Assembly: GCA_020724775.1 (NCBI GenBank)
Contig: DYGG01000002.1
Span: 1-58,295 of the forward strand
Reading direction: 5' to 3'
Source of the DNA: Ignavibacterium sp.
Lineage (GTDB): Bacteria > Zixibacteria > MSB-5A5 > GN15 > PGXB01
DNA length: 58,295 bases
Shown here: positions 29,722-34,488 of the stretch, piece by piece
How the letters are laid out: each line of letters starts with the position of its first letter
Numbering within the stretch: position 1 is the first letter of the stretch
Made by a program: the position numbers and the translations under genes
The notes under the pieces: model-generated
The model's input: only the letters and a program-made list of their open reading frames with translations
What the model was told of the DNA's origin: nothing
Database searches by the model: none

Positions 29722-31032
29722 TTATGCCCTATAGACTACCCGCCCGTTAAGTATGGTGAATCCTATTCTGCCGCTCAGTTTCCATCCGATAAAGGGCGAA
29801 TTCTTAGACTTGGAGCGGAAATTTTCCCTTCTTACCGTCCATTTCTTCTCAGGGTCTATAATAGTAATATCGGCCTTCTTCCCTATTTCCAGGGTACCGC
29901 CGGGCAGTTTCAGAATTCGCGCCGGATTTATGGTCATTTTGCTCAGAGCATCCGCCCAGGAAAGATATCCTCGGTCTATCAATTTGGTTTTGACCAGCCC
30001 GAGAGTGGTCTCGAGCCCAATCAATCCGGGCGGCGCCTGGTCGAACTCGACATCCTTCTCCTCCTCCGCATGCGGCGCATGGTCGGAACTGATGCAGTCG
30101 ATGGTGCCGTCAAGCAATCCTTCAATAACCGTCTCGACATCCTTTTGCGTTCTGACAGGCGGATTGACCCGCAGGCTGGTATTGAATTCCTTGCCAATTT
30201 CCTCGTCGGTCAGCGAAAAATGATGCGGCGTAACTTCGGCTGTGACATTTATCCCTTCCGCTTTCGCCAGCCGCACCGCCCGCACCGCGCCGGCGGTAGA
30301 GATATGGGCAATATGAACGCGTCCTCCGGTGAAGGCGCAGAGTCGAATGTCGCGGAGCACCGCTATCTCTTCGGCGACAGCGGGACTTCCTTTCAAACCG
30401 AGCCGGGTCGATTGATAAGATTCGTTCATTACCCCAGATGCGCTCAGAAATCTGTCTTCCGCATGGGATATAATAGGGATATTGAACATTTGAGCATATT
30501 CGAGGGCACGGCGCATCAATTCCGGATTTTGCAGATAGTTGCCGTCATCGGAAATGGCGACCGCTCCGGCATTTACCAGGTCACCGATTTCGGCCAGTTC
30601 TTCCCCTTTAATTCCTTTGGTAATTGCTCCTACCACATAGACATTGGCGTCCGCCATCTCCGCCCGGGAGAGAACGAACTTGACGGTTTCCTGATTATCT
30701 ATGGTCGGCGTAGTGTTTGGCATACAGCAGACGGAAGTAAATCCGCCGGCGGCGGCGGCCTGGCAACCGGTGATAATGGTTTCTTCATCTTCTCGTCCCG
30801 GTTCCCGCAGATGCACGTGCATATCAATCAACCCTGGCACAACCAGTTTCCCCGAGGCATCAATAATCTTATCCGGCGGAATATTGGCGGAATCTTTTTT
30901 GGAGCCCCCATCTTTTCCGACTCTGGCAATCTTGCCCTCTTTGATAAAGATATCCGCTTCGTTGCCAAAGCCGATAGCCGGGTCGATTACCAGCCCGTTT
31001 TTGATGACCAGGTCAAACTCCGATATCTTCAT
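29722..31032 (-). CDS. pyrC: Dihydroorotase
   Basis: A 436-residue type I dihydroorotase (allantoinase-like branch of the amidohydrolases), which cyclises carbamoyl-aspartate in pyrimidine synthesis. Metal motifs: GLIDMHVHLREPG with the HxH, HAEDRFLSASG, VHIAHISTAGAVR and CISSDHAPHAEEEK. Active copies, not pseudo-dihydroorotases, keep all of these. It is the last gene of pyrR-pyrB-pyrC: its ATG directly follows the pyrB stop with no spacer. The C-terminal PEKKWTVRRENFRSKSKNSPFIGW is typical of the family. Confidence 0.95.
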   Translation of the reverse strand: MKISEFDLVIKNGLVIDPAIGFGNEADIFIKEGKIARVGKDGGSKKDSANIPPDKIIDASGKLVVPGLIDMHVHLREPGREDEETIITGCQAAAAGGFTSVCCMPNTTPTIDNQETVKFVLSRAEMADANVYVVGAITKGIKGEELAEIGDLVNAGAVAISDDGNYLQNPELMRRALEYAQMFNIPIISHAEDRFLSASGVMNESYQSTRLGLKGSPAVAEEIAVLRDIRLCAFTGGRVHIAHISTAGAVRAVRLAKAEGINVTAEVTPHHFSLTDEEIGKEFNTSLRVNPPVRTQKDVETVIEGLLDGTIDCISSDHAPHAEEEKDVEFDQAPPGLIGLETTLGLVKTKLIDRGYLSWADALSKMTINPARILKLPGGTLEIGKKADITIIDPEKKWTVRRENFRSKSKNSPFIGWKLSGRIGFTILNGRVVYRA

Positions 31033-31965
31033 CTATTCCTCCTCGGCTTTCTTGCCGGATAAAAGATATAGAACCGCCATCCGCACGGCCTGACCGTTAG
31101 TAACCTGCTCCAAAATAACCGAGGCATCCCCATCGGCAACCTCGTTTGTTATCTCTACGCCCCGGTTCATCGGACCGGGATGCATTATGGTGTAATTTTT
31201 ATTCAGAAGCGCCAGGCGTTCTCGAGTCATTCCGAACAGATTGGTATATTCTCTCTGTGACGGAAAGAGTCCGGCTTGCTGCCGCTCCAGTTGAATTCTC
31301 ATGATGTTGACGACATCCGCTCCTTCAATCGCCTTGTCCATATTTTGATAGACATCGACTTCGAACTTTTCGACTTCGACAGGAAGCAATGTTGTCGGTC
31401 CGCAAACTGCCACCGACGCGCCCATCGCTTTTAATCCCCAAATATTGGAACGGACCACCCGGGAGTGTTTGATATCACCTACCAGCACCACCCTCAGGTC
31501 TTTGAGCCGACCATATTTTCTTCGAATTGTGAACATATCCAGCAGCGCCTGAGTGGGATGCTCATGCGAACCGTCGCCGGCATTAATCACATTTGACTGA
31601 ATGCACTGCGTCAGGAAATAAGGCACGCCTGTTGACGAGTGCCGCACCACCACCATGTCTATTTTCATCGCCTCGATATTTCGCACCGTATCTTTAAGAG
31701 TTTCTCCTTTTTTCACCGAAGACGTCGCCGGCGTAAAACTAATGCTGTCGGCCGACAGCCGCTTTTCGGCAAGTTCAAAGGATATCCTTGTCCGGGTGGA
31801 CGGCTCATAGAAGAGGTTTATAACCGTTATTCCCCGCAGGGTCGGCACTTTCTTGATGGGTCTCTCAATAATCTCGCGGAAAGACTCCGCCGTATCCAAT
31901 ATCAGGGTAATCTCTTCCTCGCTCATCCCCTCCAGCCCCAGCAAATGACGAGACTTGAGTTGCAT
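31033..31965 (-). CDS. pyrB: Aspartate carbamoyltransferase catalytic chain
   Basis: A 310-residue enzyme that condenses carbamoyl phosphate and aspartate. The carbamoyl-phosphate site is FYEPSTRTRISFE; the second-domain marker is HEHPTQALLDMFTI, and HPGPMNRGVEI lies near the C-terminus. No regulatory chain (pyrI) is present here, as expected when pyrR controls expression. The start ATG overlaps the pyrR stop by one base (TAATG). Confidence 0.96.
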   Translation of the reverse strand: MQLKSRHLLGLEGMSEEEITLILDTAESFREIIERPIKKVPTLRGITVINLFYEPSTRTRISFELAEKRLSADSISFTPATSSVKKGETLKDTVRNIEAMKIDMVVVRHSSTGVPYFLTQCIQSNVINAGDGSHEHPTQALLDMFTIRRKYGRLKDLRVVLVGDIKHSRVVRSNIWGLKAMGASVAVCGPTTLLPVEVEKFEVDVYQNMDKAIEGADVVNIMRIQLERQQAGLFPSQREYTNLFGMTRERLALLNKNYTIMHPGPMNRGVEITNEVADGDASVILEQVTNGQAVRMAVLYLLSGKKAEEE

Positions 31966-32573
31966 TATTTCTTACCCCCTTTCCGCCGCGGCTTCTTTGA
32001 CGCTACAATCTCCGGAACCGGCTTTTTCATTCCCTCTTTCACCACAAAAACCCCTTCCCGTCCGTCGGTTTCGTTCAGCCGCACCAGCACGCGGTCATCA
32101 GCCGCCGTCGGAATATTCTTTCCTACAAAATCAGGTCGGATGGGCAATTCTCGATGCCCCCGGTCTATCAGAACCGCCAGTTGAATCGATTTTGGTCTCC
32201 CAAAATCAATTATCTGGTCCAGCGCCGCTCTGATGGTTCGTCCCGTGAACAGGACATCATCAACCAGTATCACATTCCGCCCCGCCACATCGAACAAAAT
32301 TTCTGTCCTCTGTATCACCGGTTGGTCAAGTTTGAAATGAGTATCATCCCGATAGAGGTTGATATCCATCAAACCGACGGGGATGTCGCGATTTTCAATT
32401 TCCCGAATTCTTTCTGCGACCCGTTTGGCTATATCGGCTCCGCGACTCAGTATGCCGATTATCACCAATGTGTCCGCGCCGCCGTTTTTTTCGAGGATTT
32501 CATGCGAAATCCGCGTGATGGCGCGCGCTATCCCCTTTTCATCGAGGACCTCTTCTATCTTTTCCCTGGTCAC
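31965..32573 (-). CDS. pyrR: PyrR: RNA-binding pyr operon regulator / uracil phosphoribosyltransferase
   Basis: A 202-residue PRT-fold protein. The N-terminal part (IARAITRISHEILEKNGGADTLVIIGILSRGADIAKRVAERI) and the PRPP loop VILVDDVLFTGRTIRAAL are diagnostic. PyrR binds a specific hairpin in pyr mRNA when UMP is high and so reduces downstream expression; many copies also make UMP from uracil. About 25 C-terminal residues (KKPVPEIVASKKPRRKGGKK) are a basic extension beyond the usual end near residue 180. Start GTG at 32573, with GGAGG four bases upstream. A matching RNA loop lies in the leader. Confidence 0.96.
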   Translation of the reverse strand: MTREKIEEVLDEKGIARAITRISHEILEKNGGADTLVIIGILSRGADIAKRVAERIREIENRDIPVGLMDINLYRDDTHFKLDQPVIQRTEILFDVAGRNVILVDDVLFTGRTIRAALDQIIDFGRPKSIQLAVLIDRGHRELPIRPDFVGKNIPTAADDRVLVRLNETDGREGVFVVKEGMKKPVPEIVASKKPRRKGGKK

Positions 32574-32613
32574 ACCGCCTCCGTGGTGATAGATTATTGC
32601 TTACTGCTGCCGG

Positions 32614-32678
32614 AGGAAAAAATGATTTGAAAACTTTTGTTTGGAATACTTTGTCGAAGATACTAATCATTTCTTCCT
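32614..32678 (-). promoter_or_regulatory. Long-stem hairpin in the pyrR leader (possible attenuator part)
   Basis: Two 14-base arms, 32665-32678 and 32614-32627, pair completely with one G-U (AGGAAGAAATGATT with AATCATTTTTTCCT on the minus strand), enclosing a 37-base loop. The 3' arm contains six T in a row, then CCTCCGGC. The CTCCGG here can instead pair with CCGGAG inside the PyrR loop just upstream, so two mutually exclusive folds are possible. It may act in attenuation, but it is not a classic GC-rich terminator. Confidence 0.5.
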
Positions 32679-32680
32679 TT

Positions 32681-32700
32681 AGCCGCCTCTCCGGACGGCT
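32681..32700 (-). promoter_or_regulatory. PyrR-binding loop in the leader RNA
   Basis: On the minus strand the leader reads AGCCGTCCGGAGAGGCGGCT. AGCCGUC pairs with GGCGGCU (one G-U) and the apical part UCCGGAGAGG fits the published PyrR-binding consensus UCCNGNGAGG at every fixed position. It lies about 20 bases after the predicted transcription start and 108 bases before the pyrR GTG. This strongly suggests UMP/PyrR feedback control of pyrR-pyrB-pyrC. Confidence 0.85.
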
Positions 32701-32724
32701 TTAAAAGGTCAAAAAACCAAAGCG

Positions 32725-32752
32725 ATTATATCATTAATTTTCCGGGCGTCAA
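32725..32752 (-). promoter_or_regulatory. Promoter of pyrR-pyrB-pyrC
   Basis: TTGACG (32752-32747), 16-base spacer, TATAAT (32730-32725) on the minus strand; 5/6 and 6/6 matches to sigma70 boxes. The start point should be near 32718, giving a leader of about 145 bases that contains the PyrR loop. Confidence 0.75.
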
Positions 32753-32829: not shown

Positions 32830-34404
32830 CTAAAGCCCCAATTCCTCTTTAACCCCGGTTTCGTCGAAGCGGCGGATTTCGCCCCACTCCTGAAGTTGAA
32901 AAGTTATTAATTCCGGTGGCGATAGAAAACTATGGTAAGCGGCATTTCGGAAAAACTCTTCCCGGCTTAAATTGCTTTCAATTCTGCCTTGTTTCAGGGT
33001 TATAATCCGCTCACACAAATCAAAGACAATGTTGCCGTAATGCGAGATTATCAGTACTCCAACCCCCTGTTCTTTAAGCGTTTTCACCAGACATCGAAAA
33101 TGCCCTATCCCTTCGGCATCCAAACCGCTGGTTGGCTCATCAAAAAAGATGTGTGACGGCTTCATGGAGAGAATGGCGGCAAAAGCCAGACGTCTCTTTT
33201 CCCCGCCGGAAAGACTGAAAGGGTCTCGATTATAAAATGACGCGCGCTCCAGCCCCACCATCCGATAGCAGTCCTCCGCAATCCGGTCAATTTCGGTTAA
33301 GCCAAAATTCTCCGCCCCGAAGCGAATCTCTTTTTCCACCGTCTCAAGAAAGAATTGCCTTTCCGGATGCTGAAACGAAACCGCCAGACGAGGATTTTCC
33401 GAATCGAAACCGGCATAAAGAATCTTGCCGCGGTCCGGTTTCAGGAGTTTCGCCATCAGTTGTATCAAAGTGCTTTTTCCGCTTCCCGAAGGGCCCACCA
33501 GACCGCACACCGAACGGTTGTCAACGGCAAGCGATTCCCCGCAAAACAGCCGGGTGCCGGCAGAGCCATTGGGATAAGCGAATTGAAGGTCTTTAACTCT
33601 TATCTGTCGAACCGGGAAATCATTAATGGAAGACGAATTTCCTTTTTTGACCGTTTTGAAGGTATCGCCGCGCAGCCGGTATCGAAGCGGCGTTTCAATC
33701 CCGGCTTCCCGACAAAGCGCCGGATTGGAGAAGGCCTCGCCCGGAGGTCCGGAGAAAAGAACCTTTCCTTTGCTCAGTACAATTAACCGCGGATACTGCT
33801 CAGCTATGTATGAGTATTGCGTAATCCGCACTACCGTCAGGAGGGGATGCACCTGCAGCAATCTGGTCAGAGCCTCGTGCAGAAGTCGTTTCCCGGCTTC
33901 ATCCAAAAACGACCCCGGCTCATCCAGTATCAAAATCTCCGGCGCTGCCGCCATCACCGAGGCTAACGCCAGTTTCTGCTTTTCGCCGCCGGAAAGTTGT
34001 GAAGTCAGCCGTTCTCGTTTCTCTTCCAGATTGAAAAGACGGAGCATCTCCCCTACCCGCTCCTTCATTTCGGGACGGGGCATATTTAGATTTTCGAGGG
34101 TGAAGGCGATCTCTCTCTCTACGGTCGATGCCACCAGTTGATTGTCGGGATTCTGAAATACCAGACCGATTTTTCTCTTGAGCGCACGGCCGTCGGCTGT
34201 CTCCGCAGGATTTAACCGGTCGATTTCTATTCTGCCCGATTCTGCTTTAAGAAGCCCTTTCGCGAGTAAAGCAAAAGTTGTCTTACCGGAACCGTTATTG
34301 CCGATAATGGCGCATTTCTCACCGGCGTTGATATGTAATGAGAGGTTCTCAACGGCTCGAATCCCCTGCGGATAATGAAAAGTTACATCAGCAAATTTTA
34401 TCAT
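32830..34404 (-). CDS. Fused double ABC ATPase, ECF/CbiO type
   Basis: A 524-residue cytoplasmic protein with two ABC ATPase domains in tandem, as in energy-coupling-factor (vitamin/metal uptake) transporters. Domain 1 (about 1-235): Walker A GNNGSGKTT, FQNPDNQLVASTVEREIAF (Q-loop with the ECF-type PDNQ), signature LSGGEKQKLALASVMA, Walker B LILDEPGSFLD. Domain 2 (about 260-490): GPSGSGKST, FQHPERQFFLETVEKEI, LSGGEKRRLAFAAIL, IFFDEPTSGLD. Neither an EcfT nor an S component is adjacent, so the substrate is unknown. The ATG at 34404 comes directly after the T-run of a terminator hairpin, with no room for a Shine-Dalgarno. A TTG further upstream would place the hairpin inside the coding region, so I reject it. 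Confidence 0.88.
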   Translation of the reverse strand: MIKFADVTFHYPQGIRAVENLSLHINAGEKCAIIGNNGSGKTTFALLAKGLLKAESGRIEIDRLNPAETADGRALKRKIGLVFQNPDNQLVASTVEREIAFTLENLNMPRPEMKERVGEMLRLFNLEEKRERLTSQLSGGEKQKLALASVMAAAPEILILDEPGSFLDEAGKRLLHEALTRLLQVHPLLTVVRITQYSYIAEQYPRLIVLSKGKVLFSGPPGEAFSNPALCREAGIETPLRYRLRGDTFKTVKKGNSSSINDFPVRQIRVKDLQFAYPNGSAGTRLFCGESLAVDNRSVCGLVGPSGSGKSTLIQLMAKLLKPDRGKILYAGFDSENPRLAVSFQHPERQFFLETVEKEIRFGAENFGLTEIDRIAEDCYRMVGLERASFYNRDPFSLSGGEKRRLAFAAILSMKPSHIFFDEPTSGLDAEGIGHFRCLVKTLKEQGVGVLIISHYGNIVFDLCERIITLKQGRIESNLSREEFFRNAAYHSFLSPPELITFQLQEWGEIRRFDETGVKEELGL

Positions 34405-34440
34405 AAAAAACGCCGATGGGTAATTAACGCCATCGGCGCG
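34405..34440 (-). terminator. Rho-independent terminator after gcvPB
   Basis: Arms CGCCGATGG (34411-34419) and CCATCGGCG (34430-34438) form a perfect 9-bp stem with a 10-base loop. On the minus strand the stem is followed by TTTTTT and then immediately by the ATG of the ABC ATPase gene. It should end the gcv transcript; read-through or an unseen promoter must supply the downstream gene. Confidence 0.8.
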
Positions 34441-34488
34441 AAAATTCAAGTCAATTCAGTCTTAACCGTGCCGGTTACGGAAATATTC

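Follow-up and report, generated by a model that had tools for sequence, protein, structure and literature searches.

Analysis of the 58,295-nt window (the whole stretch of DNA considered here) points to a short leader ORF as the target of PyrR control ahead of pyrR-pyrB-pyrC. The predicted PyrR-binding hairpin lies on the ribosome-binding site of this ORF, so the pyr genes are probably switched by allowing or blocking its translation. The conserved leader ORF with a Shine-Dalgarno sequence borne by the loop is a feature absent from the first-pass annotation of the window. The elements of the region are as follows.

32725-32752, minus strand: sigma70-type promoter, TTGACG (32752-32747), 16-nt spacer, TATAAT (32730-32725); from the sequence
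32676-32708, minus strand: predicted PyrR-binding loop, CCUUUUAAAGCCGUCCGGAGAGGCGGCUAAAGG; from RF00515, covariation and a pattern search
32675-32680, minus strand: AAAGGA, 3' arm of the lower stem of the loop and probable Shine-Dalgarno of the leader ORF; from the ATG peak in relatives
32539-32670, minus strand: leader ORF of 43 codons, MISIFDKVFQTKVFKSFFPPAAVSNNLSPRRRCDQGKDRRGPR, which overlaps the start of pyrR in a different frame; from the sequence and relatives
32665-32678, minus strand: 5' arm of a 14-bp stem, AGGAAGAAAUGAUU, over the Shine-Dalgarno and AUG of the leader ORF; from the sequence and duplex energy
32614-32627, minus strand: 3' arm of the 14-bp stem, AAUCAUUUUUUCCU; from the sequence and duplex energy
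32610-32615, minus strand: CUCCGG, proposed earlier as the partner of the loop apex; pairing not conserved
32592-32675, minus strand: G-poor segment from the loop to the pyrR Shine-Dalgarno (16 C and 11 G of 84), candidate Rho loading region
32578-32582, minus strand: GGAGG, Shine-Dalgarno of pyrR; from the sequence
31965-32573, minus strand: pyrR, GTG start at 32573 (NCBIfam NF003549, 238 bits, cut-off 138)
31033-31965, minus strand: pyrB, aspartate carbamoyltransferase catalytic subunit (NF002032, 412 bits)
29722-31032, minus strand: pyrC, dihydroorotase (TIGR00857, 440 bits, cut-off 279)

The window is the beginning of contig 75 of a 3.07-Mb assembly of a Candidatus Zixiibacteriota genome, which agrees with the FCB-like genome suggested in the first-pass annotation; the nearest named relatives of its PyrR come from Zixibacteria MAGs. 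The pyrR-pyrB-pyrC operon proposed there was confirmed by NCBIfam matches to each gene, and the Shine-Dalgarno GGAGG (32582-32578) is present, as claimed, ahead of the GTG at 32573. The promoter, described as a good sigma70 promoter ahead of the hairpin, lived up to this description, matching 11 of the 12 consensus positions (shuffles yield 0.7 such sites) and carrying in addition a TG ahead of the -10 element. Judging from the position of the -10 element, the transcript is expected to start near 32718, and the minus-strand leader between the promoter and pyrR is about 145 nt long. A gene encoding a two-domain energy-coupling-factor transporter ATPase (32830-34449, minus strand) stops some 80 nt short of the pyr promoter, on its upstream side.

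The PyrR protein of the window can be aligned along its length to PyrR proteins of solved structure. It retains TRI.HEI and DRGHRELPIR.DFVGKN, two stretches with residues linked to RNA binding in Bacillus. This protein is predicted to bind the window loop together with UMP. A second PyrR-like protein, 44% identical, is encoded in one relative (G025 C1:1224185-1224691).

The predicted loop has the layout CCUUUUAA-AGCCGUC-CGGAGA-GGCGGCU-AAAGG, with an upper stem of 7 bp, a lower stem of 5 bp and the apex UCCGGAGAGG, and it presents the conserved apex motif UCCxGxGAGG on a two-part hairpin. As is typical of RF00515, it precedes pyr genes in a genome that encodes PyrR. Searching a 501-base stretch against all 4227 Rfam families, as the first-pass annotation had advised for the leader, gave an RF00515 match over the full loop (40.5 bits, E 3.3e-4) that lies below the curated cut-off of 54 bits, at which the window has no match; in a genome-wide search the match at 32708-32676 was the sole one. 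Among the Zixibacteria genomes, 1 of 132 has an RF00515 match above the curated cut-off and 29 of 132 have one at E <=0.001. A pattern search finds the loop upstream of pyrR in 103 of the 118 Zixibacteria loci, a few of which are duplicates of one genome and were removed from later counts. The curated cut-off overlooks nearly all these elements, though most pyrR leaders carry the loop.

The comparison of relatives' leaders, also advised in that annotation, was performed on 49 distinct Zixibacteria loops. Under the named structure, 93.2% of cells are paired (79.8% in shuffles), each of the seven upper-stem pairs shows compensatory changes on both sides, and pairing falls to only about 55% when the partner is shifted by one column; the lower stem CCUUU/AAAGG is almost invariant. 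The covariation bears out the 7-bp hairpin with the PyrR consensus that had been read from the window by itself. Folding of the whole 155-nt leader, another of its suggestions, revealed no unusual stability (z -1.2), so the evidence for the loop comes from covariation in relatives, and on that comparison the predicted loop is real.

In nearly every relative, a short leader ORF begins at the spacing from AAAGG expected for a Shine-Dalgarno. The start codon is located 4-13 nt past AAAGG and is usually an ATG at 4-11 nt; the density of ATG past AAAGG is 10.9% at 4-7 nt, 6.8% in the next bin (to 11 nt) and about 0.7% beyond. The frame that begins at the first start after the loop meets no stop codon as far as 15 nt before pyrR in 79 of the 96 leaders, compared with 8 and 27 for the other frames, these counts not being independent, as the leaders are partly related, and the gene starts being predicted. 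An ATG with an open frame was found in 68 leaders, as against 7.0 +/- 2.4 in dinucleotide shuffles. The placement and openness of the leader ORF are thus shown by comparison, and the pattern is present in 14 families; this last count favours frame 0, since it took whichever start gave the longest frame, and the first-start test is the fairer one. In a relative of the same genus (L111), the leader ORF has 33 codons and ends with GTGA on the pyrR start, and a 1-nt indel between the window and the same-genus relative moves the end of the ORF. A conserved leader peptide was sought and rejected: changes between close pairs are mostly nonsynonymous with little synonymous bias, and codon-position bias is absent, so what counts would be the act of translation and not the peptide.

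Leaders were assigned to types by a rule and by eye. Comparison shows that nearly all type A leaders (27 of 96) have their intrinsic terminator within the leader ORF. Type B leaders (69 of 96, including the window) have no terminator, and their leader ORF ends at the pyrR start; four leaders with automatic type A calls that were weak by eye (L122, L129, L134, L169) were recounted as type B, raising it from 65 to 69. The end of the ORF falls within -32 to +47 of the pyrR start in 64 of the 65 originally assigned type B leaders, and 4-nt overlaps (GTGA, TTGA or ATGA) occur in several, e.g., L111. A Shine-Dalgarno-preceded ATG ORF of such kind is found in 78% of type B leaders vs 1.3% of the 78 leaders of other genes in the window's genome. 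In type C (L024 and L188, family f7) the loop immediately precedes pyrR, with AAAGG 6 nt ahead of the pyrR ATG, so AAAGG would be the pyrR Shine-Dalgarno; in these two leaders it apparently serves pyrR itself, as direct translational control. That the same arm serves whichever ORF is next is a strong hint that AAAGG acts as a Shine-Dalgarno, probably that of the leader ORF where one follows.

Outside Zixibacteria, such an ATG was found behind 25 of 27 Omnitrophota loops. Where these leaders have a T-run, the frame is open into the terminator in 23 of 23 (other frames 4 and 10), and the loop, leader ORF and terminator are arranged as in type A (L045, L046, L049, L050, L051, L218-L248). The ATG peak is intermediate in Armatimonadota and was not found behind the loops of Bacilli, which rely on an antiterminator. 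The terminator motif GCCTGCTTGTC...GACGGGGAGG is common to several Omnitrophota leaders. A further set of leaders (L179, L180, L190, L191, L192, L193, L194, L196; families f6, f15, f16) has no loop and consists of a promoter and a terminator followed by pyrR; two of them, L179 and L191, resemble the E. coli pyrBI leader in anatomy, with a leader ORF that crosses the terminator and reaches the pyrR start.

In the proposed mechanism, PyrR with UMP would close the loop at 32708-32676 and hide AAAGG, the 43-codon leader ORF (start 32670) would remain untranslated, and the untranslated leader would lead to early loss of the transcript. In type A relatives, transcription would end at the intrinsic terminator that lies within the leader ORF; in the window, whose type has no terminator, the stop would most likely be caused by Rho loaded on the ribosome-free, G-poor leader. 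At low UMP, PyrR would leave, a ribosome would translate the leader ORF as far as the start of pyrR, and the polymerase would continue into pyrR-pyrB-pyrC. We infer that the leader ORF itself is translated. Gating of this translation by PyrR is considered quite likely, and gating combined with either of the second steps discussed below is held likely as well, with somewhat less assurance. Rho as the second step in the window is put forward more tentatively, at slightly below an even chance.

Composition bears on this second step. Comparison shows that C exceeds G in 62 of 65 terminator-less leaders, with a mean skew of +0.22 vs +0.07 upstream of the loop and -0.03 at the start of the pyrR coding region, whereas in type A leaders ahead of the hairpin G exceeds C (skew -0.28). 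The skew of the window leader (+0.19) is modest, at the 86th percentile of 78 same-genome leaders (mean -0.015) taken from 14 genome stretches plus the window, so the signal belongs to the group rather than to the single leader. The bias is equal at all three codon positions, which indicates a property of the RNA and not of the peptide. The distance from the loop to pyrR is never below 86 nt, roughly the length Rho is generally thought to need. The genome contains a rho gene (694 bits), and together with it the window has a leader of at least about 80 nt in which C exceeds G, the excess being phylum-level and modest in the window.

The best-surviving alternative for the second step is translational coupling, in which PyrR would gate the leader ORF likewise and translation of this ORF would promote that of pyrR with no stop of transcription, either through ribosomes ending at the pyrR start or through the opening of local structure. 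Almost every type B leader has an ORF that runs into the pyrR start or just reaches it, with 4-nt overlaps in several, and CCUCCG (32616-32611), which overlaps CUCCGG, could pair in the window with the pyrR Shine-Dalgarno CGGAGG; this second pairing is not conserved. However, the pyrR Shine-Dalgarno is strong and not hidden across type B (unpaired 0.41 vs 0.38 in shuffles), and its pairing with the leader shows no excess there (mean z +0.14), on which grounds a hidden pyrR Shine-Dalgarno across type B was rejected. Coupling also leaves the C-over-G composition and the minimum leader length unexplained. The composition, the distance of at least 86 nt, the rho gene and the unhidden pyrR Shine-Dalgarno favour Rho over translational coupling, which is regarded as rather unlikely; the overlap between the leader ORF end and the pyrR start also fits coupling, and Rho and coupling may both act.

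A quite different switch follows from the mutually exclusive folds proposed in the first-pass annotation: the loop apex CCGGAG would pair with CUCCGG without PyrR, and PyrR would release CUCCGG (CCUCCG), which would then block the pyrR Shine-Dalgarno. The window and its nearest relative L111 could form both pairings, but they are not conserved. Of the 65 terminator-less leaders, 10 have an exact 6-nt complement of the apex downstream (6.0 +/- 2.6 in shuffles) and 1 has a 7-nt one (1.3 in shuffles), no clear excess is seen in their apex duplex energies (mean z -0.25, standard error 0.13), and the z value of +0.14 for the pyrR Shine-Dalgarno likewise speaks against the switch, making it highly improbable. 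Still more improbable is Bacillus-type attenuation, with PyrR stabilising an anti-antiterminator so that an intrinsic terminator forms, since, despite the RF00515 match and the description of this mechanism for Bacillus (PMC4347634, PMC7430163), the window has no terminator-like site on the minus strand from the loop to pyrR, its T-run is inside a stem arm, and the leader ATG peak is absent from Bacilli loops. An intrinsic terminator in the window leader was rejected for the same lack of a minus-strand site, and the combination of intrinsic terminator and antiterminator downstream of the loop was not found in the window, a type B leader; the earlier expectation of a mechanism unlike the usual Firmicutes one is supported.

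The 14-bp stem, described earlier as ending in T6, does exist, with one G-U pair and a duplex energy of -16.6 kcal/mol vs -7.8 kcal/mol in shuffles; the T6 run, however, lies within its 3' arm and is therefore not a terminator tail, and the stem covers AAAGG and the AUG of the leader ORF. Among 14 family members tested, it is clear in L110, L111, L112 (with changed pairs, GGAAAAAAUGAAA with UUUCAUUUUUUCC) and L118 and less so in L117 and L122; in L115 it was seen by eye. Being clear in only four of the 14, it was rejected as a general element. It may delay or lock leader translation. Against PyrR gating, it hides the leader Shine-Dalgarno and AUG in some family members even without PyrR, and the gating model leaves it unexplained. 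The modest skew of the window leader and the 1-nt indel that moves the ORF end likewise count against the model.

Taken across the phylum, a tentative and somewhat bolder reading is that the PyrR-RNA complex blocks a leader ORF indifferent to its peptide and exposes the leader to Rho, the stopping device being swapped between a terminator, Rho and a direct block of pyrR while the loop stays constant. If so, PyrR would control Rho termination.

Known Bacillus pyr attenuators combine PyrR, an anti-antiterminator and an intrinsic terminator (PMC4347634, PMC7430163). The window resembles the B. subtilis attenuators of RF00515 in the sequence and shape of the loop and in having pyrR first in the operon; B. 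subtilis has an antiterminator/terminator pair, whereas in the window an ORF starts just behind the loop, without a terminator.

For the pyr leader of Thermus ZO5, Van de Casteele et al. reportedly proposed in 1997 that a translating ribosome, with no antiterminator, prevents the terminator. The Thermus anatomy of loop, leader ORF and terminator is matched by the 27 type A Zixibacteria leaders and by the Omnitrophota leaders, and type A fits that proposal; this gives broad comparative support to a model reportedly proposed from one Thermus sequence. In the window, judged by sequence, the Shine-Dalgarno of the leader ORF is likewise within the 3' arm of the loop. An intrinsic terminator inside the leader ORF is present in 27 of 96 leaders and not in the window; unlike Thermus ZO5, the window and 68 further leaders lack an intrinsic terminator and have an ORF extending to the pyrR start and a G-poor leader.

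In Mycobacterium smegmatis, PyrR represses translation through a loop covering a Shine-Dalgarno. The closest parallels are L024 and L188, the only leaders in which the loop covers what would be the Shine-Dalgarno of the first gene, pyrR; in the window, unlike M. smegmatis, the covered Shine-Dalgarno is that of the leader ORF, about 100 nt upstream of pyrR. In the E. coli pyrBI leader (pyrL), a ribosome on the leader ORF prevents termination, depending on UTP-dependent pausing of RNA polymerase; the likeness is a leader-ORF ribosome set against termination before pyr genes, with no PyrR there. The M. tuberculosis pe20 Mbox is a sensing RNA that controls translation of a small uORF, with Rho ending the transcript (PMC12810186). 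It is a Mg2+ riboswitch with a conserved peptide, whereas the sensor here would be the PyrR protein, the peptide is unconserved, and the role of Rho is inferred.

No description of a terminator-less PyrR leader ORF, or of Zixibacteria PyrR leaders, was found in the open-licence literature, and the terminator-less form appears to be new: a PyrR-controlled, probably Rho-dependent form is predicted. PyrR control is usually presented as the Bacillus antiterminator story; in a large uncultured phylum and in Omnitrophota the same loop apparently gates a short ORF, with a readout device that varies by family.
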